Assembly (NCBI RefSeq): GCF_964204865.1
Contig: NC_135257.1
Coordinates: 5,726,151-5,790,150, forward strand
Source: Styela clava
Taxonomy: Eukaryota > Chordata > Ascidiacea > Stolidobranchia > Styelidae
Direction: 5' to 3'
Length of the DNA: 64,000 nucleotides
The position numbers were made by a program, and so were the translations under genes. Positions within the stretch are counted from its first letter, which is position 1. Each line of letters opens with the position of its first letter. The notes under the pieces are model-generated. The model saw only the letters and a program-made list of their open reading frames with translations. It did no database searches and was not told the DNA's origin. This document shows positions 1 to 55,200 of the stretch, one piece after another.

Positions 1-1487
1 GTATTCCATGTGCACAACTAACTTGAATATTTATAAAGTCACTCTCTTAATCTTGGCGCGAGACAACGCCGTCAGAATACAGAAAAACGCAGAACGTCGC
101 GCGATAATTTTCGGAGCAATTATGTGTCTGAACCTCGTCGGGCATGACGGCGAATCCAACATCAGGACCAAATATTCGGAGTTACTATTGCTATCCTATA
201 AAAAAGTCGAAATAATTTCAATTCCAACACAAAATATATACCAAAATACAAATAATTTTGCAACGAGTTCGCGGCCCACCATGAGATGCTTGGCAGCTCA
301 CCAGTCGCGGGCCACCGGTTGAGAAGCGCTGTTGTATTTCATATGATTTTATTAATAGCGCTGTTGTATTTCATATGGTTTTATTAATAGACACTAGAAT
401 AGACTTTAAAAAAGCCAAACGGAAATTCTGACGCCAAACATGTTTGAAAAAAGCCAAAAATGTAAAATTTGGCCTTTAAAAGCCATTATGGCAATTGGCA
501 ACCCTGTGGTGACGTGGCGCGGTATCATGAGAGTGCACTTGAGAGGGCTAGAAAAAACGTAGACGAGCCATTAGGCGTGACGAAACTATTGTTACGTCAC
601 AACCTTGCTTCTGGTAGTTTAAAATCCTGTGTTTGAAGAAGAAGATCGTTATGAAAATCGCTTCCTTTTTAATTACAGGGACATTCGCCTTTTATCCAAA
701 TTTATGCGATAGCAAACAACAACTTCGCGCGACCAAGGTATTGCGCTCATATTTTAGCTTTTATTTGTGTTTGTCTCTCATGATGTTTGGAAATGCGTTT
801 TTGATATTATTACCAAAGCCTCAATAGGATTATGTCCTCGTTAACGCCTATATAAAATTACCCAGGGAAAACAAACACTTGGTGTGTAATGATTTACAAT
901 ATATCAACCAAATTCAAAACAGAGAATATATAAATAGTGGCGTTGCGAATTTTTTCATATATATATTAATTTTCAATAATTAACGTCGTGTTGGCGACAA
1001 ATGCAGACCATAAGTTACGACCAGCTCTAGAAATAATCTGTAATTTTGCTACGATATACCTGATAGTTACTAATATTACCAAAGGCTGGCAACATTCGAC
1101 TCATTACACAGGATTTAGTTTTGTTACATCATAGAATAGGAACTGATTGAAGTATGCTCTTCCATGACTAGCAGTCTACTATGTTGGCTAGCATATTATT
1201 CAAAATAAAAAGAAATCAAAGCAATTAGTACAAGATGTTATATAAGTCTATAGGTAGGATTTTCCGAATATAAACACGTAATAACGAGGTGACGTCTGCA
1301 ATGTCCCTACTCTGTATGACTGTATCTATTATTAGTATTGTCATATTTTTTGAACCACTGGTATAGATTTTTGAAGAGAAAGGTTAACGCGCACAGGGCT
1401 ATATAATATTATGCATTCATATTTATAATAATATACCTATCTAAGTATACGGAAAAAATAAGATATTTATTAATCATCGAGTACATT
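1..1487. other. Intergenic, upstream of MS4A-like gene A
   Basis: I see no supportable gene in this stretch; its open frames are short and match nothing. It holds a 32-bp direct repeat in two adjacent copies at about 327-391 (core GCGCTGTTGTATTTCATATG). At about 490-508 there is a GGCAACCCTG end whose reverse complement, CAGGGTTGCCAATTG, looks like an hAT-type terminal repeat. Its partner end is not in the window. A TATA-like stretch lies about 85 bases before the gene A start. Confidence 0.5.
1400..1408 (+). promoter_or_regulatory. Candidate TATA box of gene A
   Basis: The sequence TATATAAT lies about 85 bases upstream of the ATG at 1488, with only short AT-rich sequence between. Position and sequence fit a core promoter. 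No transcription start evidence is available, and AT-rich DNA yields such motifs by chance. Confidence 0.35.
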
Positions 1488-4400
1488 ATGGAATCTCGAA
1501 ATTCCCGAAACCGACAACTTCAAATATCCTCTGTCAATAAAAGTTCTTTGATTGGAATTGGGGTAAGAAACTCAAGTATAATCATATTAAATAAAATCTT
1601 GATATCTATACTGATGAATACTGTTTGGATTCTTTTTTTTCGAATAACGCTGGAATATAAAACAGTTATCGTTATAGAAGAATATCATTATAGTTCCGAA
1701 TTAAAAGGTTCAATTTAAATTATTTACTCGAAGCGCGCAATAACGAAAATGAACACATTCGAGATTTTTTCTTCTTTTTTCATGTTATTTTGTACACTTT
1801 GTGCTCATTTAAAAGAGAATTCAAAATTTTCATAATCTGTTTATTGCAAAAATGAACAAACTTAAAACAGCGTAATGGTTTTGTTGTTTCTGCTCAGTTA
1901 ATCTTGGAATGAATCTTTATATTATTTTCATTCTTCATACATCGAATATATTACTCACAGGTTACTGAAATTTTACTTGGGCTATCTTCCATCGGTTGTT
2001 GTATTGCAACAATACTCTTTGCCGCGGACAGATACTGGGATTGCTACTGGGACATTAAATATCATTACCATGATGATTCTGGTTACCATTACATTGATTG
2101 CGATTTGCCACGATTTTCGTTGTCTGCTCAGGGAATATGGGCTGGAACTTTTGTGAGTCTTTCAAATTTGTTTTGTTCATAATATGCAAAATAGCTTATT
2201 GCTATATTCGCCAGAATGTTTTGTTCAGCTCATAACATTTCAACAAAATAAACCTTGTATTCTAAATTTTTGTACAAAATTGAATTGCTGCAATATCGTC
2301 AAATTTACCGTATTTCATTGAAAAAGAACCGTATAGAATATAGATGAAATATATTTGAATGCGAAATACTTGAAAATCACAAAAAATATTTCTTATTATA
2401 ATTTAGACTCTGTTTGCTGGATGTATCAACATTGATTTCGGAGCGAATCCGTCGAAAAAACTAGTAAGTATTATTAGGCAAAGTAGTACTGTCCAGATCC
2501 TCTTCCACCGCTAAATAACTCACATGTCACTTTTGATTTACTTTCTTCTTTTTTCAATATGACAAGTTAGTAGGAGAAACAGAAGGAATGTCTTTTGTTG
2601 ATAGGTATAGTTTTTTAAGACTAGCGCTGGGGCAGACAGTTAGAGGTTAGAGCTATATTTGTTTGAAACCGAACAAAATTAGTTATGTTTGATTATGTGT
2701 CTGTCAGCTACTACTTTGTATTGTGTTTGAAACAGTTTTCTCATTGAATATTTTTTCCCAGGCCTCCTATAGCACTGGATTTTCAACATTTTCTACTTTG
2801 TTGAATTTGGCCATGGTTTGTTTGGAAGTGTTTGCCGTTTCTGACAGTTACTATTACTATTATTACTATAGCGTGAGTGTATTAATATTTTTTTTAATCA
2901 GTATATTCGAATTTAGTTCTTTTGTTTACACGCCTTAAGTAAATTTAGACTTTTGATTTAAATTTGTTTATTCCAGAATAAACGCTCCAAATATTTGAAA
3001 ATCAGGGCTACCCAAGCAATTACTGGATTCGGATTTGAAAATTTGCCCATTTTGGTAGTGGTTCATTCATTTCCATATAGTCCTGCATCCAGCTCATAAT
3101 ATGATTATTTATTAATTTAACGAATTTTCAAATAGTCGTTTTGTAATCTAACTGGAGATTTCTAGAATGTGGAAACTATTTTAGACTGATCAAACATAAT
3201 CAAAATAACTCTTAACGTTTTTAATTCTGACTTGCAGTGGACATTACAAAATCTACACATAGCTTTGCTATCGATTGCCAGCTTACAAGTCATATTTACT
3301 TTTACAACATCTGTTTTATCATGTTGTGTTGGAGGATGTGGTGAGTGCTGTGGCAACGAGCAAGTAAGTGTTCATGTGAGGATTTTTAGATAGAGTGATA
3401 CATCCGGTTATCTATGATTTCATTTTGATCACATTTTTAGCGGATTAAATTGAGTTTTACGCTTTACTACCCTAAAATGTAATGAAAAAAACTCTGTACA
3501 AATCCCCTTTTAGATGTTATCAATGTATTACGTGGATGTGTTACCACAGGGCACTCATAAATATATTTAATCAACTCTGCTTTATAGGTCAACACGGTGG
3601 TTATTCCAATGACTTCAACAGCATATCCTCAACAAGGCGCAGTCAACAATGCTTATATGGCAGAGCAACAAACGAGATACTTGCAGCCTCAACCTCAGCA
3701 AATGTGGGGTAAATACTGACAGCGGTGGTATTAGGTAGATAAGCTGATCAAACTAGTACTCAGTTCTCAAGCTTGTGTGCAGCAGAATGAACCAAAAAAC
3801 ATTCGCATCCGAATTAATAGCATGTAATTTTATTTCTTTGGCCTCTCGCTACTGTATATGAAATTACTTTTGCGTGAAGTATTGTTTGAGTGAAATTATG
3901 GTTGCCAAATTAAAAAAGCCTATCTGGCATTTCACGATATGTTCCCGATGGTATAAGGTGTATAGTCACACTTCACACAATTTGTTTGACTAGAAACTAT
4001 AATTCGCCCAAACCAAGATCATGATTTACTAAGGGAGTAATGGCGGCTCTGGCCTTGATGGGTCCTAATACTGTGATGTGTATAGGCAAGTTTTGCTTTC
4101 GACCTCGGATACCTGTTATCATTCTGAACACTCTGAAATATAAATCATTATTAATATTATGGCGATCAAAATTTGCATGTTACGAAATTTACTAAATATT
4201 CCCCTTAGACGGGTAGTATATATATTTAAATTACTAGTGAAAATATATTACCACTTATTTATTTTAGGACATCAGCCTTCAGCTGTGAATGAGACAACAA
4301 TGACATCTAACGCCATGCATTTGCCTGGAGCTGTCCAGGCAAATCCACCGTCATATGACAGAGGAACATGTAAGTTGAACTGAAAGTGTATTATAGGGGA

Positions 4401-7400
4401 TGGTTGACCAATCCAAATACAGATATATTGAAATACACTCAAACTCGCAAAATCATAAGAAACACTATATTTCAACTCCCGAACGAATGCCGAAAAAATA
4501 CGTCATCCAAATTGGTCAATACGAAAAAGGCCATGGACACAAAGCTAATGATCAAAGCTGTCGTGATAGTAATTTTCGAGGTTTTCCTTCGTGACTACTT
4601 CACGTTCACATTATTTGCCATTATCATAACTTTCCTATATTCAGAGCTGTCACGACATTTCATAATATATGCTTCATCGTTTAACGATTACTTTGAGAAT
4701 TTTAATGTTTGTAATAAAATAAAGCAAGCGTTGTCACAAACCGCAAACTGATAACTTTCATTCTCATGTTTGAAAAAGCTAATCACTAATAAATATTACT
4801 TTTCAGCGAGGCAACCTACTCAAATGCCGGAAACGAGCATGCAAGCAAACGAGAGACACATAAATCACAAACCGACACATTTACCAGGGAATGTCGCTAT
4901 GAGTTCACCTCTCGCGTACCCTGGTCATATAGGTAATCATGAAGCTGTACAATGATTTTAACACAGGTATCACAGTACCATTTATATGATTGAAATCCAA
5001 GCACCTCATTGGATCCCAACTCTCGGGGTTGTCCATGGTAAACGTCCCATGGGATGGGACAGCACACATTTGTATTTCTCATAAGACACAAAAACCGTAC
5101 TATTATCGGGGAAATGATGGTGAAACATTTCGTAATGGAGTTCGTGTCCATATATTTGAGCATAGCTTTCTTGTTATTTATGAAGGGCAAAATATATTCA
5201 GCAATAACAATATACTTCGTGAAGAGGCTGATGGACACATGTATAATAGTTGAACATAAGGTTATCACAAGTCCGTGAATATTGTGGTTTTTTATGTGTC
5301 TTCGTACATGTAGTCCTATTTAGTGGACGCCAAACCTAAATTTACCACTTTTGTCGAATTGTATTCCAATAGGAATCCCATGGGATGGGATGGGGCAGGC
5401 ATAATTGCTAAGGGATGGGAATGGAATGGGACAGAAAATATGTCCCATGGACAAGCCTGCCAACTATACAAGAGGGCCAAATGGATGAAAAGTCAAATTT
5501 GATTGATGTTCACTGATAAATTAGTATTTGTCATTGATTAATTCCTGCTTCAAAATCGTTAAATTTACTGATGAATTACCATAGAAAAAATCGTTTGTAA
5601 ATTTTACACTTTAGTAAGGCAACATACGCAAATGCCAATGCCAATTTCTATGGAATCACAAATAGGAAACACAACATCTCCAGAAACGGACCAGATCAAT
5701 GGTATAGTAACATTTTTCACAAAGTGCTTTACTAAAAACTACAATTCGCCTAAACCAAGATCATGATTTCCTAAGGGTTTCACGACTGGTCTGGCCCTGA
5801 TGTGTCTTAGTGTGATATGTATAAGTTTTGCTTTCGACCTCGGATACCTGTTATCATTGTGAACACTCTTTAAATATAAATCATTATTAATTTTATGGCG
5901 ATCATAATTTGCATGTTACGTAAGTTACTAAATGTTTCCCTTAGAAGGGTAGTATATTTAAATCAGTAGTGAAAAAATATTATCACCTATTTACTTAAGT
6001 ACATCGGCCTTCAGCTGTGAATGAGACAACAATAACATCTAACGCCATGTATTTGCCTGGAGTTGTTGAAGGAAATCCACCGTCATATGGCAGAGGAAGA
6101 TGTAAGTTGAACCGAAAATGTATTATAGGGACGGTTGACCATATCTGCGCGTTCACTCGCGTGCTATTGGGTTGACACACGTTTAATAGAGTGTAACTCC
6201 GGTCTGAACTCCTCGGAAGTCAATGAGCATACAATATATTCAATGCCAAATGTTCGTATATATATAGTAAAGTTTACAATCCAATCGGAATACAGATCGT
6301 TCAAATACAATACGTTCAAATTCTACACCATTCTCATAACTTGCTATACTTTAAAGCTGTCACAACGTTATAATATATATGCTTCAATCATTTAACGATT
6401 ACTTTAAAAACCGTAATTTTGTAATAAAATATAATCTGATATCAAAAGCAAGCGTTGTCTCAAACTGCAAACTGATAACTTTCATTCTCATGTTTGAAAA
6501 AGCTAATCACTAATAAATATTACTTTTTAGCGAGGCAACCTACTCAAATACCGGAAACGGTTATCATGAAAGCAAACGAGAGAAACATAAATCACAAACC
6601 GACACAGTTACCAGGGAATGTCGCTATGAGTTCACCTCTCGCGTACTCTGGACATATAGGTAATCGCGTAGCTGTGTACAATGATAAGGATTAACACAGG
6701 TACCGCAGTAGAATTCTATATGATTGAAATTTGAGTAACTCATTGGAGTCCAACTCTATACAAGAAGGGCAATGGATGGAAGGTCAAATTTGATTAATGT
6801 TTATGGAGAAGATGTGCAAGTCTTAGGGATAAAGACTGTTCACCCTAATATTCAAAGTTCGATTCCCACGTTATTAATTAACACGTGTTATGGAATGTGA
6901 CTCCAATCTGGATTCCCTTAGACGATAATAAGCACACGATGTTGAATATCGAATTGTTGTATGTTATTGAAAAGATGCGCGATCCAAATTTTAAATACAG
7001 ATAAAATTGTACACACTTAATTCTAATGCAGTAAGATCACGGTCAGATCCCAAGTGAAACAAAAAGCACAATATTATAGAGTCATCTCGGCAAACCGGAA
7101 ACGATACGTCATCAAATTGGTCGAAACGAGAAAGGCAATACATGGAACGAATGCATTATCGCTGGAGCGAAAACATAATGTGGCCTATTTTGTGAAATAT
7201 TACATGCTATCAATGTGAAAGGGTTAAAAACATTATAATCCATAGTTACACAATGCACATTCGCTACAAATGTTTACTGATAAATTAGTATTTGTCATTG
7301 ATTAATTCCTGCTTTAAAATTGTTAAATCTACTGCTTGATTATCATAAAAAAATCATTTGTAAATTTTACACTTTAGTAAGGCAACCTACGCAAATGCCG

Positions 7401-7715
7401 ATGCCAGTTTCTATGGAATCACAAATAAGAAACACAACGTCTCCAGAGGCGCAGTTATCGGGGAACGCTGAGATGAACTCGCCTCCCTCATACAGTGGAC
7501 ATACCGGTAGGCCTCAAATATTATGTTGATTTCCGTTTCAATACCAATTTAGTGATTATTGTATACATCTATGGAAAAAAGACTTGCAGTGAACCGAAAT
7601 TGCAACATTGACATGTTACCTTTTTTCAGAGTTACCAGAACCAGAGACAAACGTTCACACATTAACTTCATTGGAAAACAATGAGGCAAATGAAATGGAA
7701 TACATACAAGAATAG
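1488..7715 (+). CDS. MS4A/CD20-like four-span membrane protein with repeated PPxY tail (gene A)
   Basis: Predicted exons: 1488-1562, 1961-2152, 2407-2463, 2762-2872, 3238-3363, 3588-3708, 4268-4369, 4807-4932, 5615-5701, 6000-6101, 6531-6659, 7378-7506, 7630-7715. All have GT/AG borders and join in frame to 480 residues. The first five join in phase 0 and encode a cytoplasmic start and four membrane spans. The run WAGTF...GANPSKKL resembles the TM2 end of vertebrate MS4A proteins (WG...KNPTKCL). Loop 1 is rich in Tyr, His and Asp with two cysteines; loop 2 carries seven consecutive tyrosines. Tail exons are all phase 1 and carry three PPSY and two PLAY motifs, PPxY being the ligand of WW domains as in NEDD4 ligases. 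Family members are multimeric membrane proteins tied to signalling or trafficking; the role here is unknown. The 5615-5701 exon is short and may be skipped. Family call strong, exact tail splicing less so. Confidence 0.8.
3998..5725 (+). repeat. Tail-exon duplication unit 1
   Basis: This unit of about 1.73 kb is matched by the next one along nearly its whole length, introns included; both begin with an AATTCGCC(C/T)AAACCAAGATC stretch. It contains exons 4268-4369, 4807-4932 and 5615-5701. The third exon diverges from its partner after about 5690, which places the duplication junction near 5690-5730. The unit contains a MITE absent from unit 2. Confidence 0.85.
5024..5459. mobile_element. hAT-like MITE, 436 bp, in a gene A intron
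   Basis: Terminal inverted repeats are CGGGGTTGTCCATGG on the left and, read as reverse complement, CAGGCTTGTCCATGG on the right. The left flank is CCAACTCT and the right flank starts CCAACT, consistent with an 8-bp target duplication that lost two bases. The homologous site in duplication unit 2 (around 6751) is uninterrupted, reading CCAACTCTATACAAG, which is direct evidence of insertion. There is no transposase; the open frames inside are not genes. Confidence 0.8.
5730..7520 (+). repeat. Tail-exon duplication unit 2
   Basis: Second copy of the exon trio (6000-6101, 6531-6659, 7378-7506). All three exons stay open and keep phase-1 borders, so the tail was lengthened without a frame change. 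Compared with unit 1 it lacks the 5024-5459 element and carries an extra insertion at about 6804-7268. Its third exon keeps the PPSY end that the unit 1 counterpart lost. Confidence 0.85.
6804..7268. mobile_element. Inserted SINE-like element, 465 bp, in a gene A intron
   Basis: The insertion is flanked on both sides by AATGTTTA. The matching place in duplication unit 1 (about 5505-5515) has no such sequence. Near its start are blocks resembling RNA polymerase III boxes (TGTGCAAGTC, then AGTTCGATTCCC), suggesting a tRNA-derived head. Parts recur diverged at about 4420-4650 and 6130-6330, so it belongs to a local repeat family. The SINE label is an inference; the insertion itself is well supported. 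Confidence 0.6.
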
Positions 7716-8796: not shown

Positions 8797-9945
8797 AGGC
8801 TTCCCGCTGCTTGTCAGCAGGGAACCTATTGTATTCCTGTGTTTTATTATTATTATTTATTATTATTATTATTTATTATTATTATTTATTTTTATTATTT
8901 TTTTTTCAAATTGGTCCTACAAACTTGAAATTCACCTCAAATGTGCAGAAGTTCTCAACTAGCAATAAAATGCAAATTTTATGCATGACTGACCACGCTT
9001 TCACGCTCCAGTGCGCAAAACGCGTTTTCAGTTTTTTTGCGATTTCTCAAAATTGATACATGCTATTGGGTTGAAAATCATAACAATGATTAATGGACTT
9101 GTTCCGGATACGATATGTCAAGGATACGCATGAGTGGCCTCGGCGATACGCTCCAGTGAGCAATATAGGATTTTACATTTTCATCTTCTTCTCGTGAACG
9201 ACACTACTTAGAGACTTGAAATTTACAGCACATGCAGATAATAAGTCCCCCATCATAAATTGCAAATTTTATGCATGACTGACCACGCTTTCACGGTCCA
9301 GTGAGCAAAACGCGTCTTCAGTTTTTTTGCGATTTCTCAAAAATGATACATGGTATTGGGTTGAAATTCATAACAATGATTAATGGACATGTTCCGGATA
9401 CAATATGTCAAGGATACGCATGAGTGACCCCGGCGATACGCTCCAGTGAGCAATATAGGATTTTACATTTTCATCTTCTTCTCGAGAACGACACTACTTA
9501 GAGACTTGAAATATACATCACATGCAGGCAATAAGTCCCCCATCATAATTTGCAAATTTTATGCATGACTGACCACGCTTTCACGCTCCAGTGAGCAAAA
9601 CGCGTTTTCAGTTTTTTTGCGATTTATCAAAATTGATACATGCTATTGGGTTGAAATTCATAACAATGATTAACGGACATGTTCCGGATACGAAATGTCA
9701 AGGATACGCATGAGTGACCTCGGCGATACGCTCCAGTGAGCAATATAGGATTTTACATTTTCATCTTCTTCTCGAGAACGACACTACTTAGAGACTTGAA
9801 ATTTACATCACATGCAGATAATAAGTCCCACATCATAAATTGCAAATTTTATGCATGACTGACCACGCTTTCACGCTCCAGTGAGCAAAACGCGTCTTCA
9901 GTTTTTTTTACGCGGGAAGCCTGTTAAAGCTGCACGCAGCTCTAG
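8797..9945. mobile_element. Helentron/HINE-like element with tandem-repeat core
   Basis: From left to right: AGGCTTCCCGC, a TTA/TTATTT microsatellite (8845-8895), an array of about 290-bp repeats, and GCGGGAAGCCT (an 11-base inverted match to the left end). A hairpin AGCTGC-AC-GCAGCT follows at 9928-9941, then CTAG. Helitron right ends are known for a short hairpin followed by CTRR. Non-autonomous Helentrons (Drosophila DINE-1, oyster pearl elements) are known for subterminal inverted repeats, a microsatellite and a satellite-like core. No Rep/helicase gene is present. Element class is inferred from structure alone. Confidence 0.55.
8895..9910 (+). repeat. 290-bp tandem repeat array
   Basis: The block TGCAAATTTTATGCATGACT starts at 8971, 9261, 9551 and 9841, an exact 290-bp period. 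There are three full copies, a diverged partial copy before the first and a truncated one after the third. Copies are nearly identical, implying recent homogenisation. No open frame runs through the unit. Confidence 0.95.
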
Positions 9946-33251: not shown

Positions 33252-33270
33252 GATTATAAGAATTTTGAAG

Positions 33271-33277
33271 TATATAT
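33271..33277 (+). promoter_or_regulatory. Candidate TATA box of troponin T
   Basis: TATATAT lies about 100 bases upstream of the start codon, just downstream of the CRE. This spacing is compatible with a short 5' leader in the same exon as the coding sequence. Confidence 0.45.
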
Positions 33278-33373
33278 GTCAGTTATACCCATACCAATGT
33301 CCTTATATCAACACAAGTTCGCGTAGGTTGCAATAGGTTCCTAGATTCCAACACTGTTAAAAGACAAGTTATA

Positions 33374-34351
33374 ATGTCTGAAAGCGAAGAAGAATATTCG
33401 ACGGAAGATGAGTCCGAGGAATCTGGAACTGAAAACGAAAAAAATGAGGAATCTGGAACTGAAGACGAAAAAAATGAGGATTCTGGAACTGAGGAAGAAA
33501 AAGAAGAGAATAATAGCGAAAAGCACAATGGACATGAAGATGAGGAAAATCCTCGCAATGGTGATGTTTCAACTAAACCTACTAATAAAAGCTCAAATGA
33601 TCACGACAGTGGGTATAAGACTGATAAAGAAAACAATGTTGAAAAAACTGAAAACAAGGTCGTCACACCAATACTTGTCCCTCCAGAAGTTCATCCTGGC
33701 GAACAATCACTTCAGTTGGAAAGTATTTATAAAAAGCGAATGGATAAAGATATGACAGAATTACAAACATTGATCAACTCGCATTTTGAAGCAAGAAAAA
33801 AAGAAGAAGAAGATCTCGAACTACTCAGAATTAGGATTGAAAAAAGAAAAGCGGAAAGAGAGGAACAGATGAAAATAAGGATGGAAATTGAAAAAGAACG
33901 ACAGGCTCGCGAAAAAGAGGAAAGGAAGAAAAGAGAAGAGGAAGAAGACCAAAAAAGGCAGGAAGATGAAGTGCGTAAAAAGGCTGCAATTGGCATGTCA
34001 TTACACTATGGAGGTTACCTTGCCAGAGCTGAAAAGAACAAGCCTAACAAAAGACAAACCGAGCGTGAAAAAAAGAAGAAATTTCTTGCCGATCGAAGAA
34101 AACCCCTCAATATCGATCATCTCAGCACAGAAAAAACACAAGAAAAAGCTCGAGAACTGTGGAATTGGCTCTATAAACTCGAAGAAGAAAAATATGATTT
34201 TGAGCAAAGAATTCAGAGACAGAAATATGACATCTCTCACCTGCGTCATAGAGTGAACGAGTACATGGGGAAGTTTTCGTCAACAAAAAGGCAAATGACT
34301 GCCATAGGACCAAGATCAGGAATAGCTGCAAAATCGAGCGTTTTTAAGTAG
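33374..34351 (+). CDS. Troponin T, single-exon
   Basis: This 325-residue protein is the tropomyosin-binding subunit of the troponin complex, which places Ca2+ control on striated-muscle thin filaments. Residues 1-60 are an acidic repeat (SGTENEKNE, SGTEDEKNE, SGTEEEKEE), the usual hypervariable N-terminus. About 120-205 is a charged helix (KKRMDKDMTELQTLI...) matching the conserved tropomyosin-binding segment. HYGGYLARAEK, KRQTEREKKKK and ADRRKPLNIDHLS are the family's most conserved stretches. About 255-300 (ELWNWLYKLEEEKYDFEQRIQRQKY) is the troponin-I-contacting coiled coil. The C-terminus is basic. The reading frame has no interruption and no intron, whereas vertebrate troponin T genes have many. 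The frame is intact and has promoter-like sequence, so it is probably functional. No poly(A) tract or target duplication was seen that would prove retroposition. Confidence 0.95.
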   Translation: MSESEEEYSTEDESEESGTENEKNEESGTEDEKNEDSGTEEEKEENNSEKHNGHEDEENPRNGDVSTKPTNKSSNDHDSGYKTDKENNVEKTENKVVTPILVPPEVHPGEQSLQLESIYKKRMDKDMTELQTLINSHFEARKKEEEDLELLRIRIEKRKAEREEQMKIRMEIEKERQAREKEERKKREEEEDQKRQEDEVRKKAAIGMSLHYGGYLARAEKNKPNKRQTEREKKKKFLADRRKPLNIDHLSTEKTQEKARELWNWLYKLEEEKYDFEQRIQRQKYDISHLRHRVNEYMGKFSSTKRQMTAIGPRSGIAAKSSVFK

Positions 34352-38600: not shown

Positions 38601-40838
38601 GATGTTCGTTTATCCTCACTTTAAACGCTGATCCTCTTTTCAACCCACGCTGGTATTGGATTCAAGTATTTGATCGCATGCATGCCTATATATAATGCTT
38701 TGCTTTGGAATATGCAAATATGTTCCAATATACACGCAATCGTAATATGAGTAATCGTTCATATATATTAATAAACGCGGGCATTGTTGATATCCTAATT
38801 TACATATTCAATTCTCGTAGCGAATAATATTTAATTGCTGGAAATGGTTATTTTAGTTAGCTCTGAACATGCTAATACCACTCGTGCAAGTAAACCATTT
38901 TTAGTCTTCTTTATAACTACTACATAGTGAAATATTTAAATGTAGCTTAGACAACGGAGAATTTATTTAGAATGTAATAAGCATTTTTCTCACTCAGAAT
39001 GCTATATAAAAATCATTGGACGACAAAGAATTTTGAACTCTATTAAATATATGAGATATTCCATTCTACTACATTCTATATTGGAATACGATCACTCAAG
39101 AACGTGGTTGAAAACAAACAACACGTGATCTGATTCGAGCGAGTCATAAAGTGGATGGTTTTCCAACAATACAACATTGCTTACAAATCTTTTTTGTTTC
39201 TCTCTTTCCTAAATTAGAAATTTGTAATAGACAAAACAAATAGTCCATGATATTTGTCATGACTTTCCAACATAACAAAGCCAAAAATTCAAATAAGGGG
39301 ATATTAAATTGATGAATACATCCGATGCAGTCTGAACCAAACTGTCAAGGCCCGTTTTTATGTTAGGTGGAGGTAACGACAGAAACATATGCCTAACCAC
39401 AACCACCATTTGCACAATTGCATTATGTTTTATTTTTAGTTTGTGAGTTATTTTGGCACTACATATGGTAAAAGTAAGAATAGCAAACCATAGTTATTTT
39501 TATAATATCTCGGCACGAAGGAACTTTTAGCCTAATACCTCAGTATAGTTAAAACAACCGTAGAATATGACTAGACTCATTTTTGCAGGAGAAGTGACAA
39601 TTGGTCTATCACCCAACGCAATCTTTAGTTCATTTTTACCCTGCTCTGTATTTGGATGCGGTTGACGGACTCTTAATGCATGGTTACAACAATCTTAACT
39701 GAATATCAATAAGGAAAAGTAGTGTTCGATACCAAGTTTAACGGCTTCGAATTATTTGTTTATAGATTTGTTCACAGAGTTATTATTCGTGCTGTTTGTA
39801 ACCTTTGTATGTTTCCATGCATATAAACTAACGGATTATGCTGATGCTAAAGGAAAAACTACATAGCATCTAACAGACCATGGGAATGACTTCGGTAATA
39901 CGGAAGGGGAACACCAATAAGTGATGCCCAAGTGCCGTCTGATGGTTCTTATAAAGGCGTCTAATTCGATTTGTTTACGTCATGCGCCCACTCATAACCG
40001 TTCTGTTTGATTCATTGTTCTAGTATGGGCCACGTCAGGTGAGTTGCGACAAATTTGTATTTAAATGAAATTTGCTAGTGTTTCTAGTGAGAAATATACG
40101 TAGGTAATCATTGGTAATAGTGATATGATCCCGTTAATCCAATATACCGTCAATTGATTGTGGTTTCTAGGAAAGTTCCACTAAAAATTTTGATTTAAGA
40201 CTGGGAAATAGTTGTGCCCGTCATCCAATTTCGCTTTTATTTTTTATTGTATTTTTTTTTGTATTGTTGTGAGGAATCATAATATTAAGAATGCAAAGGA
40301 TAGTGGATACCGTTTTTCCAAATCAGAATCGTGATTTTGTGCTAGATTCGCAAATTGATGCCTGGTTGTTGTCATCTTATCTAAACACTGCGTGGGTTGA
40401 GTATTGTTTAATGCATTACTAAAGTTTATATCTGTGCAAATTGAAAAGGACAATGATATAGAACCCGACTCAAATATTTACGTATGAAGTTGACAGTATT
40501 CATGCAGTATGTGCAAACAAAGAGACAAAGGTGTGTTGCTATGTAGTTTAAATTAAGAAGTCTAGGATTCAATAGGCTTTGCTTTGACGTTACGTAAATT
40601 AGAGTGTCTGAATATTTTAACTTAATTTCTCATGTTATGAATCGGCTAAAATTGATTTCGTAAAGTTATATTTATACGTGCTTCCAATTTGTTACCGTTA
40701 TGAATATATGTTAATGTTTGTAGGTTGACAAGATTTTGTTTTGTTTGTATTAAATTTTGACAACTAGCTCAATCCTGATCGATTGACATTCCGAATACCT
40801 AATTTATGCTAATAGTTTATGTTGTGATAAAAGACACC
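38601..40838. other. Divergent intergenic region between gene D and the kelch gene
   Basis: I see no gene or clear element in these 2.2 kb. The minus-strand promoter of gene D should be at the left end (TATATATA at about 38688-38695) and the kelch promoter at the right. Non-coding kelch leader exons could be hidden here. Confidence 0.45.
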
Positions 40839-41786
40839 ATGGGTGTGTCATCTTCTAAATCGCAGCATCAGGGTGAAGAGTCGGTTATTTGCTATAAAAA
40901 GAGAGCTAGCTCCAATTTGTCTACTCGAAATGAATGCATTGCTGTGCTGAATAGACAAAATGGAAAAATAAGCTGCTATGACCCTACAGTCGATGCTTGG
41001 AGTTTCTTGGTGGAAACGAGGTCGACCACATTTATGCGGATTTGTAATCTGAACGGAAATTTGTATTTGGTAAGCGAAAACAAACTTTTGAAGTTTACAA
41101 AAGAAAAAGGTTTTATAGATGCAACCTCTCTACGTCATTCTCCGGAAGAAAGTCTTGCTCAAGTTGTTGTATTTCAGGGACATATATACTTAATAGAAAA
41201 CGTCATAATGTCGCGCTTTGATCCCGATCTGGACAAGTGGAATGAAAATTTGCCTGGGTGTAGATTTGGTGTTCCAGGAGGGTTCTGCGTAACTGCGTCA
41301 GCTAAAAACATATATGCATTTGGATTTGCAGCGTGCGAATTTTTGCATCCTTGTCATGTAGTCAAAATATATGACCCACAGACTAATTTGTGGTGTGAAT
41401 TGAATCTTCCAACACCAAATCACACAGGACAGGTGTACGGGTCAGCGTGCCCTTTGCAAAAGGAAATCTACTTTCTTGGTGGTGCTTTCGGATCCGCAGT
41501 ACGAACTGTCGACTGTTTCTCAATTAAAACTAATAAATGGATCAACAAATACGATTTTTCAACATTAAAACTACCGAGACACCGTTTTACGGCATGTGTA
41601 GCAAACGGAAAACTTTATGCAGTTGGAGGTGCATTTTCAAAAGAAAATCTTACCGACCCTGTGCAAGAAACGGAAGACTCGATTGAGGTTTACGACAGCA
41701 AAACTAAAGAGTGGACGTTGGTTACTTATTTAGAAGGTGCGAACGGCTATGTCTCCGCATGCGCGCTGCCGGCTGATTTTTGTTAG
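40839..41786 (+). CDS. Kelch-repeat protein with N-myristoylation signal, single exon
   Basis: A 315-residue protein from one uninterrupted frame. An in-frame ATG is 11 codons upstream (40806), but the ATG at 40839 sits in an optimal context (GACACCATGG) and gives MGVSSSK, a textbook N-myristoylation signal (Gly2, Ser6). The rest is about five to six kelch blades, each with the hydrophobic-Tyr-Asp...Trp pattern: CYDPTVDAWSF, RFDPDLDKWNE, IYDPQTNLWCE, CFSIKTNKWIN, VYDSKTKEWTL, with GG or G doublets as in YFLGGAF and YAVGGAF. This predicts a beta-propeller, a protein-binding platform. No BTB or BACK domain precedes it, unlike KLHL ubiquitin-ligase adaptors, so a membrane-anchored scaffold is more likely. 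The substrate is unknown. An AATAAA occurs near 42354. Confidence 0.85.
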   Translation: MGVSSSKSQHQGEESVICYKKRASSNLSTRNECIAVLNRQNGKISCYDPTVDAWSFLVETRSTTFMRICNLNGNLYLVSENKLLKFTKEKGFIDATSLRHSPEESLAQVVVFQGHIYLIENVIMSRFDPDLDKWNENLPGCRFGVPGGFCVTASAKNIYAFGFAACEFLHPCHVVKIYDPQTNLWCELNLPTPNHTGQVYGSACPLQKEIYFLGGAFGSAVRTVDCFSIKTNKWINKYDFSTLKLPRHRFTACVANGKLYAVGGAFSKENLTDPVQETEDSIEVYDSKTKEWTLVTYLEGANGYVSACALPADFC

Positions 41787-43243: not shown

Positions 43244-46200
43244 TCAGAGCCTTGTCGTTTCATCATTTGAAGATAAAGAGTCATCGTAACCTGAGTTTTG
43301 AAATACATTTACTATTTTTGATTTTCTGAATTTTTTCTTCTTCGTACGGGGAGAATGAAAACTATTTTCGTGACCATCGCTGTCTTCAAACTTGACCTTT
43401 CGTTGAGGCCTAACGTCTTCCACATTGTCAAAAACAGCTCCAGGAGTAGCAGGCTTAAAGGGTTTTACACCGCTACTGTGTCTCTCATGTTGCAATTGTC
43501 GCAATCTAGGCAGTTGCTCGGCTAATTCATGCGGAAATCCTTCAACTGATATTCGTCGTTCTCGATGATTTTGATGTTCACTGACAGTTATTGTTTGTCG
43601 GTTTCTTGTTGTACGATCTTTGCGACACTGTGTAAGCGGTGATGGGTATTTGCTGGGTCGCTCACATTCTGATTCAAATGTGACAACACTGGGAAGACTC
43701 GACTCTTTATATGGTTTGCTGACACAATCTACACGGGCGTCCACTTCATCTTCAACTCCCGTGACTGACACCCTCATTCTCCCGACTTCAATGCTGGTTC
43801 GTGCTGAACTATATCCGGATGAAGCACTAATCCTCTTGTTTGAAATAGTCTCCAGTTCGCCTACATAATTTCCATACGATTTTTCTAATTCTTGAACAAT
43901 ATCAATTTCAACGTCCTCTGCTTCGAGCCACCAAGTTTGTAAAGTTCCGAGGCCCTGTCGACAATAAAAGTATGGAGAGCTATAAGTTGGTAAGTATATA
44001 TAGGTAATACCGGAAATACACAATGCAATAACTAGGATTATTAAAACATGTCTCTCATAAACCAATATAAATATATATATTTAAATCAGCGCAAATCTTA
44101 TATATAAAGCAAATAGTACTCAAACGTAGTAGAATAAGTTTACCTTCATAGGGACCATAGTGTCACGCTTTTCAATAATGAAATTCCCAAATTCATCTAG
44201 GAGACTTTTCGTATTCGGTGAAACATGAATCCGAAGTGCTGAAAAACAGTATTTGAATATACAGAAGAAAAGAATATATATTCTATACTTTAGTCGTAGA
44301 ATAAGAAAATAAAATAAAAATAATATATTGAAACACACGAAAAAGCATAACAGGCTAGCTATACTTGTATAAAACAAGAGAGCTATACTCAAATATATGG
44401 ACACAAAAGCCAACTCGTAGTAGTACGGGTATGCAATACGTCAAAATAGGCTAACGGTGCAGCAGTGTTCACGACTAAAGCGATCGCGCATCCGTCACAA
44501 GGTGCACAACTTTTAATGACGTCATTGCACACAAACCGAATCCCATAGAGCGCACAAAATTTTTTGAAGTACATAGCAACAAGAAAAAGCACAACAACAA
44601 CAACATAATACCAAAACGATCCATATGATCATTTTGTGTCCAATAAATTTTTTCAACATAAACATGAACAATGTAGCTCGTTTTACCACTACCGCTGGTG
44701 TAGTGTGTCATGACAGATTTTTCATTTGCAAGTCAAGAAGAAGCTTAAGGAAATCATCACTCACCTTCACCATTCTGTTCCATTCTTGCTGCAGTATTAA
44801 CAGTATCTCCAAACAAACAATATCTGGGCATTTTTTGTCCGACTACTCCGGCTACAACCGACCCACTATGAATTCCCACGCGAAGTTTCATTTTTCTGTC
44901 GGGCATGTGCCTTCAATAAATTTTTAAAATATGTTTTGAAGGCTTACATAGTTTTTATTTCAAATGTTTGATTGGACATTTGCCGACATTTATCGAATAT
45001 TTTTGAATGAACAGTATTTTTGAATAAAAAAAATTTAAATTGAATATTCCGCAGTTTGTCCACTTTGGTACGATTTTACTTAAGTATTAAACTCACGGTA
45101 TTTCAAAATGTTCCACTCCGTTGATTAATGCAAGAGACATTCTGGCAATCTGGCGAACATGTTCTTTTCCATTTCTGTCTGGTAATCCAGATACAACCAT
45201 ATATGCATCTCCGATAGTCTCAACCTATGATCCCAAAGCAATGTTGCAAAATGTTATTGAAAACGAATCACGCTTTTTCCTTATATATATATCAAATTAA
45301 AAAATTCTGGCAGACGGATTTACGATATTTTTTTCTGTCCTATTCTTCGAACGGAAAATGAAGAACAACAGAATATGAGCTTTTTAATTAGTAGTTTTCG
45401 TCAATTCGATTAACTTTTATGGTATTCTAATATACGATTATTTCATTATATATATCCAAACGAATATATTGTTTTATATTTATACAAAAAGAAAAAGCAT
45501 ACAACATGAAATTTGAGTGAGTTTTTTTTCATTTAATTGAGTGTCTTTTTACCCAAATATCAAATGAGTGTCATAGTAGTGTAGTAGTAGTGATACAGTA
45601 GAGAATGAGTGATAGAGTAGTCTAAAAATGTATAGACGAATCAAGTTTTTGCAAGTAAATAGTTCATTTAAGATCAACACCTTGTACACATCAAATTTAT
45701 CCGCAATTTCATCAAACATTGTGTAAAGATGATCCAGCATCTCAACTACTTGAAACGGTGTACTTTCATGACTGATTGCAGTAAATCCAACAATATCACT
45801 AAAATATATTGTGACGCTGTCAAATTTTTCTGGCAGCACATCCTGTAAAACATAATATGATAAAATTATATGCCAGTAGGTCTCATAAAAACATGAGAAT
45901 ATTTTAAACTTGCCTCTTTTCAAAATGCGCAAAGACATTGGCATTTGACGGCAATATATTTTATTCACATTGTCAAAATTGCTTAGCTCATGAAGAAATA
46001 TGTTGAACACGAGTATAATAGGTTTGTTATAATTTTATAATCAAGTGTAAATGATGTTTTCATACTTTAATTTACTCACTTGTCCGCGTTTTAATCTTTC
46101 TGCAACGCTCTTTGGAAGCATTTGGTATAATAATGTATCTGCACGTTCTTTTTCTGCTTTATATTGGTCTGTTCTTTCTTCAACTTTTTCTTCAAGATTA

Positions 46201-52200: not shown

Positions 52201-55200
52201 GTGAAATTTATGTTAGAAATGAAACTTTTCGCCAAGTTTGGAACTCCCATAAACAGAAAAAAGTAATTGATAGGGAATTTAAATTTTTCTATTTACACAT
52301 TTTATGAAATTCAAAGATGGAAAGCCGTATCAAGTTATTTTTAAAAATTCTCATCTCGAACTTCAGCCAACTTATTTAATTTAAAATACGAGTATACAAA
52401 ACAAGTAAGCAAAAGTGCAGAAGTTTGATAACAATTGACACCAGATGTAAATCATTCAACATTTTGAAAGTATTTACTTCAACTGATTGGCCAAACCGTC
52501 AACCATCCCAGCATTCATGTCCACTTATCTATATTACAGTATCGATATAGTCAATATTACATGTTATCAATTCAATATTAAACTATAAAGTATAAACGAT
52601 CGTCCAAAAATACGTAGAATAAACGTAGATTGCAAAGTAAATTATGACTCACCTATGCGCGATGAAAAGAGTAACGATAAAACAAAGCAGCAGCACGACA
52701 AACGTTCCAATGAGAGCTTTGACAACTGAAAACAGAAGTAAGTATTACTCATTTGAATGGTAAACATTGCTAAAATTAATTTAACTATTTCTACGCATTA
52801 CTTCTCAACGTAAAATAGGATAGATCCTGGGGTCACAATATTTTATTATACAGTCCTATAAAACAGAGACAAAGTTATATCATCAGAACAAAAAACTAAC
52901 AATTCCTAGAATAGGATGAAAATCGCAAGTAGCCTCAAACGAATTTCTTTTAATTTTATCTCTTAAACTGGTTATAGTCTTTTGTTCAGTAAATTTAATA
53001 ATATCGGGTAGGTTTGTAATGATCACGTAAGATTGTTGTGAGAATTAATGAGATCCTTTTGTTTAAAAAAGCTACCTCATATATATTTATATATAAAGAA
53101 AATATGAAAACGATTGATAAAATAACTTTTACATACGAGTAGACACACGATGTTCTTCGCAAGGTGTATACCCGCAATCTGGTTCGTTCACAGGAGGCTC
53201 ATTACCAGGCCAGTCTATCGGTACAACTTCTACATACGTTTGATTTTCTCCATAGTACACGACTGCTTCCTGCAAAAACAACAAAAGTAGTCATATCATC
53301 TCATATAAATTATATGCCTGTGATTTTGTGTGTGAACTGTTACTCTGTTAGCATCACAATATTCAATATATATATATTTTCTTGAATACCGGAGTTGAAA
53401 ATTTTTGTTTTTGTGTCTACAAAAGGATGATCCCAACCAGTAAAGATTTTACATGCTTCTGTCAAACAATAGTCAATTCTTCAAATAAAAATCGCCCAGT
53501 TGCGGTTTCGCGCCTCATAGATTTCGCTGATTTACTTAATCTAGCAAACAAATGGAAACTCGCCTGAAATTTCTGAGTCGCATTGTTCATATCCATCAGA
53601 GTATAATCCATAACTCTATCCCCTGTTTCAGTTATTTTTACCAAGCCATCAACGCTTTCAAATGTTATATTCCATAGCAGCCGAGTAAATGATCTCCCAT
53701 CTGATAAATCAGTTATATTTCCCTTTTCAATACTCCTGGAATAATTGAACCAGTGCTATATTTTGTGTTTAAAACTACAAATTTATTCTTATCCAATTAA
53801 TTCTGAACTAACAACTAATTCTGGAAATGTTCAAGTGGTAAAGCATGTGATTAAGATGAAGAAGTTACATGTTTTAAATTGAGAACGATCATGATATTAT
53901 ACAGCGTTATTCCGATAGTCCTCGTATTTGTCTGAGCCTGGCTTACTTGTTCACTCCGTGAACTAGAAGTTTTACTGCATCGTAGTATTGAGCAAGAAAC
54001 GGATTGACGAATTGTTCGTCACCCGATATCGCGGATCCCATTTTCTTTTTCATAGAATCTGAGAAGTTTTTATATTTTTCTGTTTTCGATTGACGAAGTG
54101 AAATTACTTGAAGTGCTCTCATTCCATCACTAGAATTTCCAACGTCTTTCGTGCAATAATCTGGAATGTAATTTATAGTTATGGTTACAAATAAAATAAC
54201 AGAGCATCGCGTTAGAATAATTCTTGTATTTCTATAGAAGAAATAGTCTGGAATGTAAACATAAAAGTTTGTGTTTATTGTAACTCTAATGGGCCAAACT
54301 GTCATATTCAAAATATCAACGAAAGTTTTCATTAGCAAGAAGTCTTGGCTGTTCTTGGAATCTCTGATCTCTTCTAACATTTGTTTAAAAACGGCGGCTA
54401 TGACGTATGATATTGTATTAACAATTTGTGAATGTACTCAATTTTTAAAACTTGAAACGTCTTTTCCTAATCTGTCTATATTAAATGTATATTGCTAATA
54501 ACGTTCGATAAACTCACCATTGTTTCCCAGCACTAATTCACAATTTTGATCATCTTCATTGCTCCACTCATATGAAATATTTGTGTTATAAATATCAAGA
54601 TATAGAAACGCATAATCCCCTCCTGTCATTCTCTTTTCCTTTGCTTTATTCATTATATACCTCATCGCTTTTCTTCCAATACACCAAATCGAGACTGGAA
54701 ATAATAAAATATTATAAATACACTTTATTTTTATACTTTGGCTTGTGAAAAATATTATATATATTTGATATTTATTTCCATAAATATTACAAATATGTCC
54801 TGGGATGATTCGCATTAAAATACTTTTTCGTCATTTGTTTGCCCGAAAAAGATTTTATAACTCCCCAAACAGTGTTCAATTTACCACTATGGTCAAGTGT
54901 CAAAATAGTATGATAAATGTCGGTTTTTCGTGCAAGTGTTTTGAAAGAATTGTTTGATCGGTCATGTAACAAGTATTTTATTGTTCCATAAAGCAAGCAA
55001 ACTACGTAGATTCTGGGTTGCTAACATTCGTGTGATCATGCAGAATTTCGTTTTTTTGAGGATACTTATTCAAATAAAACATATTGGCTAATGGTACTGT
55101 TATAAGAACTTATAAAAGTTATATGTGCGATACTATGCTACTATGATACTCTACATCAAGAAGTAGCCTTCTTCAGAACTAAAAACATAGCATTTTAACG

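Follow-up and report, generated by a model that had tools for sequence, protein, structure and literature searches.

A tandem duplication within the PPSY-bearing tail of a predicted MS4A-like gene of Styela clava

The MS4A/CD20 family (PF04103) includes FcepsilonRI beta (MS4A2) and CD20 (MS4A1), and a 2010 survey concluded that invertebrates are without MS4A genes (PMC2826416, in the portion of its text accessible to us). A Ciona gene named Ms4a15/2 (Pem-7) is described in the accessible part of PMC11094015 as a maternal postplasmic RNA and germline marker; its likeness to the gene treated here is that of an MS4A-named ascidian gene, compared by name. We analyzed a window of 64,000 nucleotides of Styela clava (C9:5726151-5790150, where C9 is contig NC_135257.1; positions given without a contig are those of the window) and searched the genome of 376.6 Mb in 379 contigs. 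This genome also gave one partial match to the GH6 family (E 1.5e-6), which among animals is not known outside tunicates, in agreement with an ascidian source. The gene under study, gene A, and two predicted paralogues, A' and A'', resemble the MS4A/CD20 family in their core profile matches and in a GIW.G segment held in common, and differ from it in their sub-cut-off Pfam scores and in a long exon-built tail.

In tandem exon duplication with symmetric (1-1) exons, same-phase copies stand head-to-tail together with their intron flanks and the reading frame is unchanged. The duplication in gene A is an event of this familiar, already known kind, and it differs in that one breakpoint lies inside an exon. 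The lysosomal proteins LAPTM4 and LAPTM5 bind Nedd4, and the PY motifs of LAPTM4 are required for Nedd4 binding and partly responsible for sorting (PMC3214061, from the part of the article available). Gene A, known from sequence alone, is likened to them as a membrane protein with PY motifs and by its proposed action, with no sequence relation claimed. In the open-access literature on MS4A together with PPxY, as far as the accessible parts of the texts go, PPxY occurs in PMC4815072 solely inside a reference title on WWOX.

Duplicated exons in the tail of gene A

The predicted model of gene A runs on the forward strand from 1488 to 7715, with 13 coding exons and 480 aa. Exons 1-6 (1488-1562, 1961-2152, 2407-2463, 2762-2872, 3238-3363 and 3588-3708) form the membrane core and are separated by introns of phase 0, while all introns from 3708 onward are of phase 1; exon 13, the last coding exon, is placed by the gene model at 7630-7715. 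The tail is presumably on the cytosolic side, and the splicing of each of its exons is predicted.

Self-comparison revealed ten two-copy families of direct repeats (D3-D12) that span the tail region with a spacing of 1710-1764 bases, and an eleventh family (D13; spacing 1291) that is out of register. The main blocks pair 3960-4410 with 5702-6141 (85%, E 2e-142), 4602-5023 with 6312-6757 (83%, E 2e-129), and 5506-5684 with 7270-7447 (92%, E 6e-67), so that the repeat alignment sets unit 1 at 3960-5701 and the part of unit 2 homologous to it at 5702-7447, both on the forward strand. The six tail exons on this strand are a1 (4268-4369; LPGAV...PPSY), b1 (4807-4932; LPGNV...PLAY), c1 (5615-5701), a2 (6000-6101; LPGVV...PPSY), b2 (6531-6659; LPGNV...PLAY), and the full-length c2 (7378-7506; LSGNA...PPSY). 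Each exon starts and ends in phase 1, and none of the six contains a stop. The initial annotation had proposed a tandem duplication of phase-1 exons with all copies open, and both points are borne out by the repeat blocks and the gene model. It had also given every copy the pattern LPGxV...P(P/L)(S/A)Y, which holds for a1, b1, a2, and b2 (four of the six), whereas c2 reads LSGNA...PPSY and c1 has neither part. The middles of the introns align poorly between unit 1 and unit 2, and since the fillers between the repeat blocks differ, the raw unit length is partly made up of unlike sequence.

The copied stretch is not the clean exon trio that had been described, as it comprises two whole exons and a piece of a third, with c1 cut at about 5684-5702. 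In a clean exon set both breakpoints would lie in introns; here, the identity of c1 and c2 stops at 5684, within exon c, and the start of unit 2 matches the start of unit 1 from 5702 (= 3960), with 17 bases between 5684 and 5702 that are not clearly alignable. Exon c1, truncated at the breakpoint, is the first part of exon c without LSGNA...PPSY; it lacks any PY-like motif, its end is in phase 1, and GTATAG, the donor that it requires, stands at 5702, the start of the match to the left breakpoint. With a breakpoint inside an exon, the exon copy at the end of the unit must borrow its donor from intron sequence, and c1 may often be skipped because its donor scores worst of the 30 compared. The acceptor of a2 is AAG; its score ranks 10th from the bottom among 30, inside the spread of the other acceptors, and an in-frame CAG follows 15 bases downstream. 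As all tail exons are of phase 1-1, the inclusion or skipping of any of them leaves the frame intact. A single tandem duplication took in sequence from ~3960, in the intron that precedes exon a, as far as the interior of exon c, and left the order a1-b1-c1(truncated)-a2-b2-c2, in which the truncated c1 has to use a poor donor that chanced to sit in the copied intron. Gene A is a readable case of tail growth, with same-phase exons in tandem, a breakpoint within an exon, and a donor from an intron.

The unit alignment also delimits a stretch in the b-c intron that is found in unit 1 only (5024-5463, +; DNA fold z -3.2), with GTCCATGG and CCATGGAC near its ends. In unit 2 the counterparts of its flanks (5023 and 5464) sit side by side (6757/6756), and downstream of A' there is an 86% match to 5040-5089. 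The stretch is possibly a mobile-element insertion.

Paralogues and relatives in the MS4A/CD20 family

Both paralogues are predicted on the same contig, A' outside the window at C9:5716705-5720408 (+) and A'' at C9:5708033-5700977 (-). The core exon lengths of A and A' are identical (75/192/57/111/126/121), and those of A'' are nearly the same (84/183/57/111/126/124). An extra core exon that was first drawn at 2977-3054 was dropped, since the lengths in A and A' are identical without it; its DNA is 86% alike in A', where a one-base gap shifts the frame, and in the A'' intron it meets no resemblance beyond 10 bases. The tail of A' consists of one exon a, with one PPSY, and a last exon of its own, and exons b and c were not found in A'. 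The tail of A'' has five internal phase 1-1 exons of other sequence and a last exon, and PPxY is absent from the predicted A'' protein. Judged by these two tails, a tail of small phase-1 exons is probably older than the unit duplication. The duplication and the split between A and A' form a trichotomy whose order is not separated in 260 shared columns (unit 1-unit 2, 40 differences; unit 1-A', 42; unit 2-A', 46).

Divergence between A and A' is uneven. Window positions 3266-3715 differ from A' (about C9:5718500-5719000) by 3-6%, against 8-26% over 1466-3265, and intron 5 differs at 12/210 positions against 72/365 in intron 4. The low-divergence patch at 3266-3715 is likely the product of gene conversion between A and A'.

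The membership of gene A in the family was traced through intermediates. Against PF04103 (CD20), A (residues 1-228), A', and A'' scored 17.4, 18.4, and 13.7 bits, which do not reach the Pfam cut-off of 27.9. Intronless CD20-like relatives occur elsewhere in the genome, and 14 of the 17 matches listed pass this cut-off. Alignment with hhalign of the A/A'/A'' core profile to that of 13 of the 17 intronless relatives gave 99.0% and E 2.2e-18 (a single comparison). Searched against PDB sequences, the profile of the 13 relatives in turn matched FcepsilonRI beta with E 5.5e-7 and CD20 with E 3.6e-4, its sole other match being SecE at chance level (E 0.74). Homology of the A/A'/A'' core to accepted MS4A/CD20 members was thus found through intermediates. 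The MS4A-like label of the initial annotation is upheld by the profiles of the relatives, although gene A itself stays below the Pfam CD20 cut-off. For comparison with the four transmembrane spans of the MS4A/CD20 family, simple hydropathy with a threshold of 1.5 gave three spans in A, three in A', and four in A''.

About half of the relatives examined carry PPxY in their tails. Among the places listed, PPxY follows the last predicted span in 11 of the 21 intronless MS4A-like frames that are 200 aa or longer, and a tail PPxY is lacking in the other 10. The motif lies no more than 14 residues from the C-terminus in 10 of these 11 frames and 46 residues away in one. Shuffled tails of the 21 frames contained PPxY in a mean of 2.2 and a maximum of 8 frames, and none of 2000 shuffles reached 11, with the reservation that several of the frames are close paralogues, so that they do not represent 21 independent cases. 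The 21 frames are the 27 distinct places listed, which are a lower bound, minus six frames shorter than 200 aa (L041, L043, L055, L057, L058, and L063, of which L041 and L063 are one and the same frame); the dropped frame L057 carries two PPxY. A PPxY tail had been considered unusual for an MS4A-like protein, a view contradicted in this genome by the 11 of 21 intronless relatives and by A' with its one PPSY. The presence of PPxY in many relatives is a more interesting lead than the duplication itself, and the count of 11 in 21 offers a testable cell-biological role for a family that the 2010 survey judged to be missing from invertebrates (PMC2826416, in the part of the survey available). A large intronless CD20/MS4A-like family is located at C14:3089302-3953781, C18:15073969-15088221, and other places, and many of its members end near NPPEYTAH or NPPSYD.

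PPSY motifs, proposed WW docking and alternative readings

The motif count first given for the tail of gene A, three PPSY and two PLAY, was confirmed, with PPSY in a1, a2, and c2 and PLAY in b1 and b2. The PPSY motifs stand at residues 254, 359, and 445 of the 480-aa model, after the membrane core. In 20000 shuffles of the 300-aa tail, three PPxY occurred at 0.00025 and at least one at 0.118; one PPxY is not rare by composition and three are unusual, with the caveat that a1 and a2 are copies. The net gain from the duplication was one PPSY and one PLAY, and PPSY rose merely from two to three because the breakpoint removed the PPSY end of the first c copy. The PPSY series would run from one in A' through two in pre-duplication A, barring other losses, to three now, and PLAY probably predates the duplication since it is present in both b copies. 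Peptides of b and c2 are clearly alike (b1-c2, z 13.4; b2-c2, z 18.4) and those of b and the truncated c1 weakly so (z 1.8 and 3.2); by this likeness, b and c arose from a single exon by copying. Peptide a resembles b weakly (a1-b1, z 4.9; a2-b1, 3.0; a2-b2, 2.6; a1-b2, 2.4) and c2 with z of 2.1-2.4, and given this weak likeness the descent of a, b, and c from one exon is merely suggested.

PPxY and LPxY are the canonical WW-binding forms, according to the accessible part of PMC8509885. PLAY, initially annotated as a degenerate docking motif, is indeed present in b1 and b2, but it falls outside these two forms and is therefore unlikely to bind WW domains. The same text, again in its available portion, states that 11.7% of human proteins contain PPxY (PMC8509885), so that a single motif is weak evidence. 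In the S. clava genome, four places have WW and HECT matches as neighbors on one strand (C17 ~0.25 Mb, C9 ~7.61 Mb, C19 ~17.32 Mb, and C18 ~3.55 Mb), and of the 40 WW matches listed, 12 have a HECT match no more than 20 kb away, by position and not by gene models. Judged by their position, these matches probably mark genes for WW-HECT ligases, so that suitable ligases probably exist. The PPSY motifs of gene A would most likely bind WW domains, with NEDD4-type ligases as the leading candidates, and such docking would help to sort or turn over the gene A protein or its partners, as reported for LAPTM4. We infer WW binding, the recruitment of a NEDD4-type ligase, and sorting by the gene A tail, and regard the docking idea as plausible. 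On balance, and with moderate confidence, we favor the explanation that the gene A product sits in the membrane as a distant relative of MS4A/CD20 and bears a long tail of small phase-1 exons that underwent one duplication, can be skipped in frame, and docks WW proteins, perhaps of the NEDD4 type, through PPSY for sorting.

It is highly improbable that the repeat is an assembly artefact or an allelic copy set in tandem. Nothing was found in favor of this reading, and the aligned introns of the two units differ at 96/740 positions (13%) with 37 gapped bases, compared with 25/300 in the aligned exons (Fisher p 0.042), a divergence that makes an assembly echo hardly likely. The intron fillers are also unlike between the units, and a tail-protein search of the genome placed each copy of gene A once, on a contig of 23.8 Mb, the remaining matches being the single exon a of A' and a match at chance level (E 6.7). 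These results counter the collapse or expansion error that the initial annotation had named as what would refute its reading. A second reading concerns c1, which would be a dead exon, skipped since the breakpoint had taken away its own donor, leaving five block exons and 451 aa. When the donors of A, A', and A'' were scored by a leave-one-out matrix, that of c1 came to -3.8 bits, the lowest of 30 by 8.5 bits (next worst, 4.7), although this matrix is built on just 30 predicted introns from three related genes, and the end of c1 falls where the repeat identity is already over; against this, c1 is open and in phase 1 at its end. We judge the dead exon slightly the more probable state of c1, and it is a refinement of the favored explanation, compatible with it.

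Two further readings concern the function of the tail. Growth by drift, in which the copies stay open at no cost, the extra PPSY are functionless, and the ancestral PPxY alone matters, or none, appears somewhat unlikely. Between the tails of unit 1 and unit 2, pN is 0.084 and pS 0.105 over 98 codons (a ratio near 0.8), while the cores of A and A' give 0.038 and 0.107; with pN near pS, residue constraint on the tail after the duplication was weak, and A' manages without b and c. A neutral simulation that took the unit-1 exons as start, 13% divergence, and the intron gap rate gave a probability of 0.24 for no stop in six exons, which by itself agrees with drift, and of 0.003 for no stop together with no frameshift. 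The exon pairs contain one gap (3 bases) in 300 aligned bases, hence no frame-breaking gap, against 12 gaps in the aligned intron blocks, 11 of which are not a multiple of 3, and PPSY is intact in a1, a2, exon a of A', and c2; both observations argue against drift. YAP, WWOX, and MAGI are WW scaffold proteins outside the NEDD4-type ligases. The PPSY motifs might serve WW proteins of this kind (YAP-, WWOX- or MAGI-like scaffolds), in scaffolding and not in ubiquitin-dependent sorting, and 28 of the 40 WW matches listed, more than 20 kb from any HECT match, are consistent with such a role. However, LAPTM4 proteins have been reported to bind Nedd4 through their PY motifs (PMC3214061, in its available part), and we regard the scaffold role as unlikely. 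The favored explanation could also be extended, in a manner that we find rather doubtful, to C-terminal PPxY as a signature of WW docking throughout an expanded MS4A-like family of tunicates, with gene A made into a splice-tunable in-frame array by repeated tail-exon duplication (b and c as copies of one exon, a perhaps older) and alternative splicing setting the number of sites. If true, the MS4A-like proteins of animals other than vertebrates would have a basic function, ubiquitin sorting guided by PY motifs, that has so far escaped notice.

Other features of the window

Rfam (gathering threshold) and tRNA searches across the window gave no matches. Just downstream of gene A, a tandem array at 8965-9908 consists of 3.3 copies of a 290-base unit, which is itself made of two related 145-base halves. 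An open frame at 33269-34348 contains a troponin domain (E 2.7e-23), and a 30-base tandem repeat of 2.9 copies (33416-33502) stands in front of the domain. A Kelch-repeat open frame is located at 40803-41783 (+). Two places on the minus strand, 45552-46034 and 53946-54437, gave a catalytic stretch of guanylate/adenylate cyclase and an ANF-receptor match that falls short of the cut-off, and these perhaps belong to one receptor guanylate cyclase gene.
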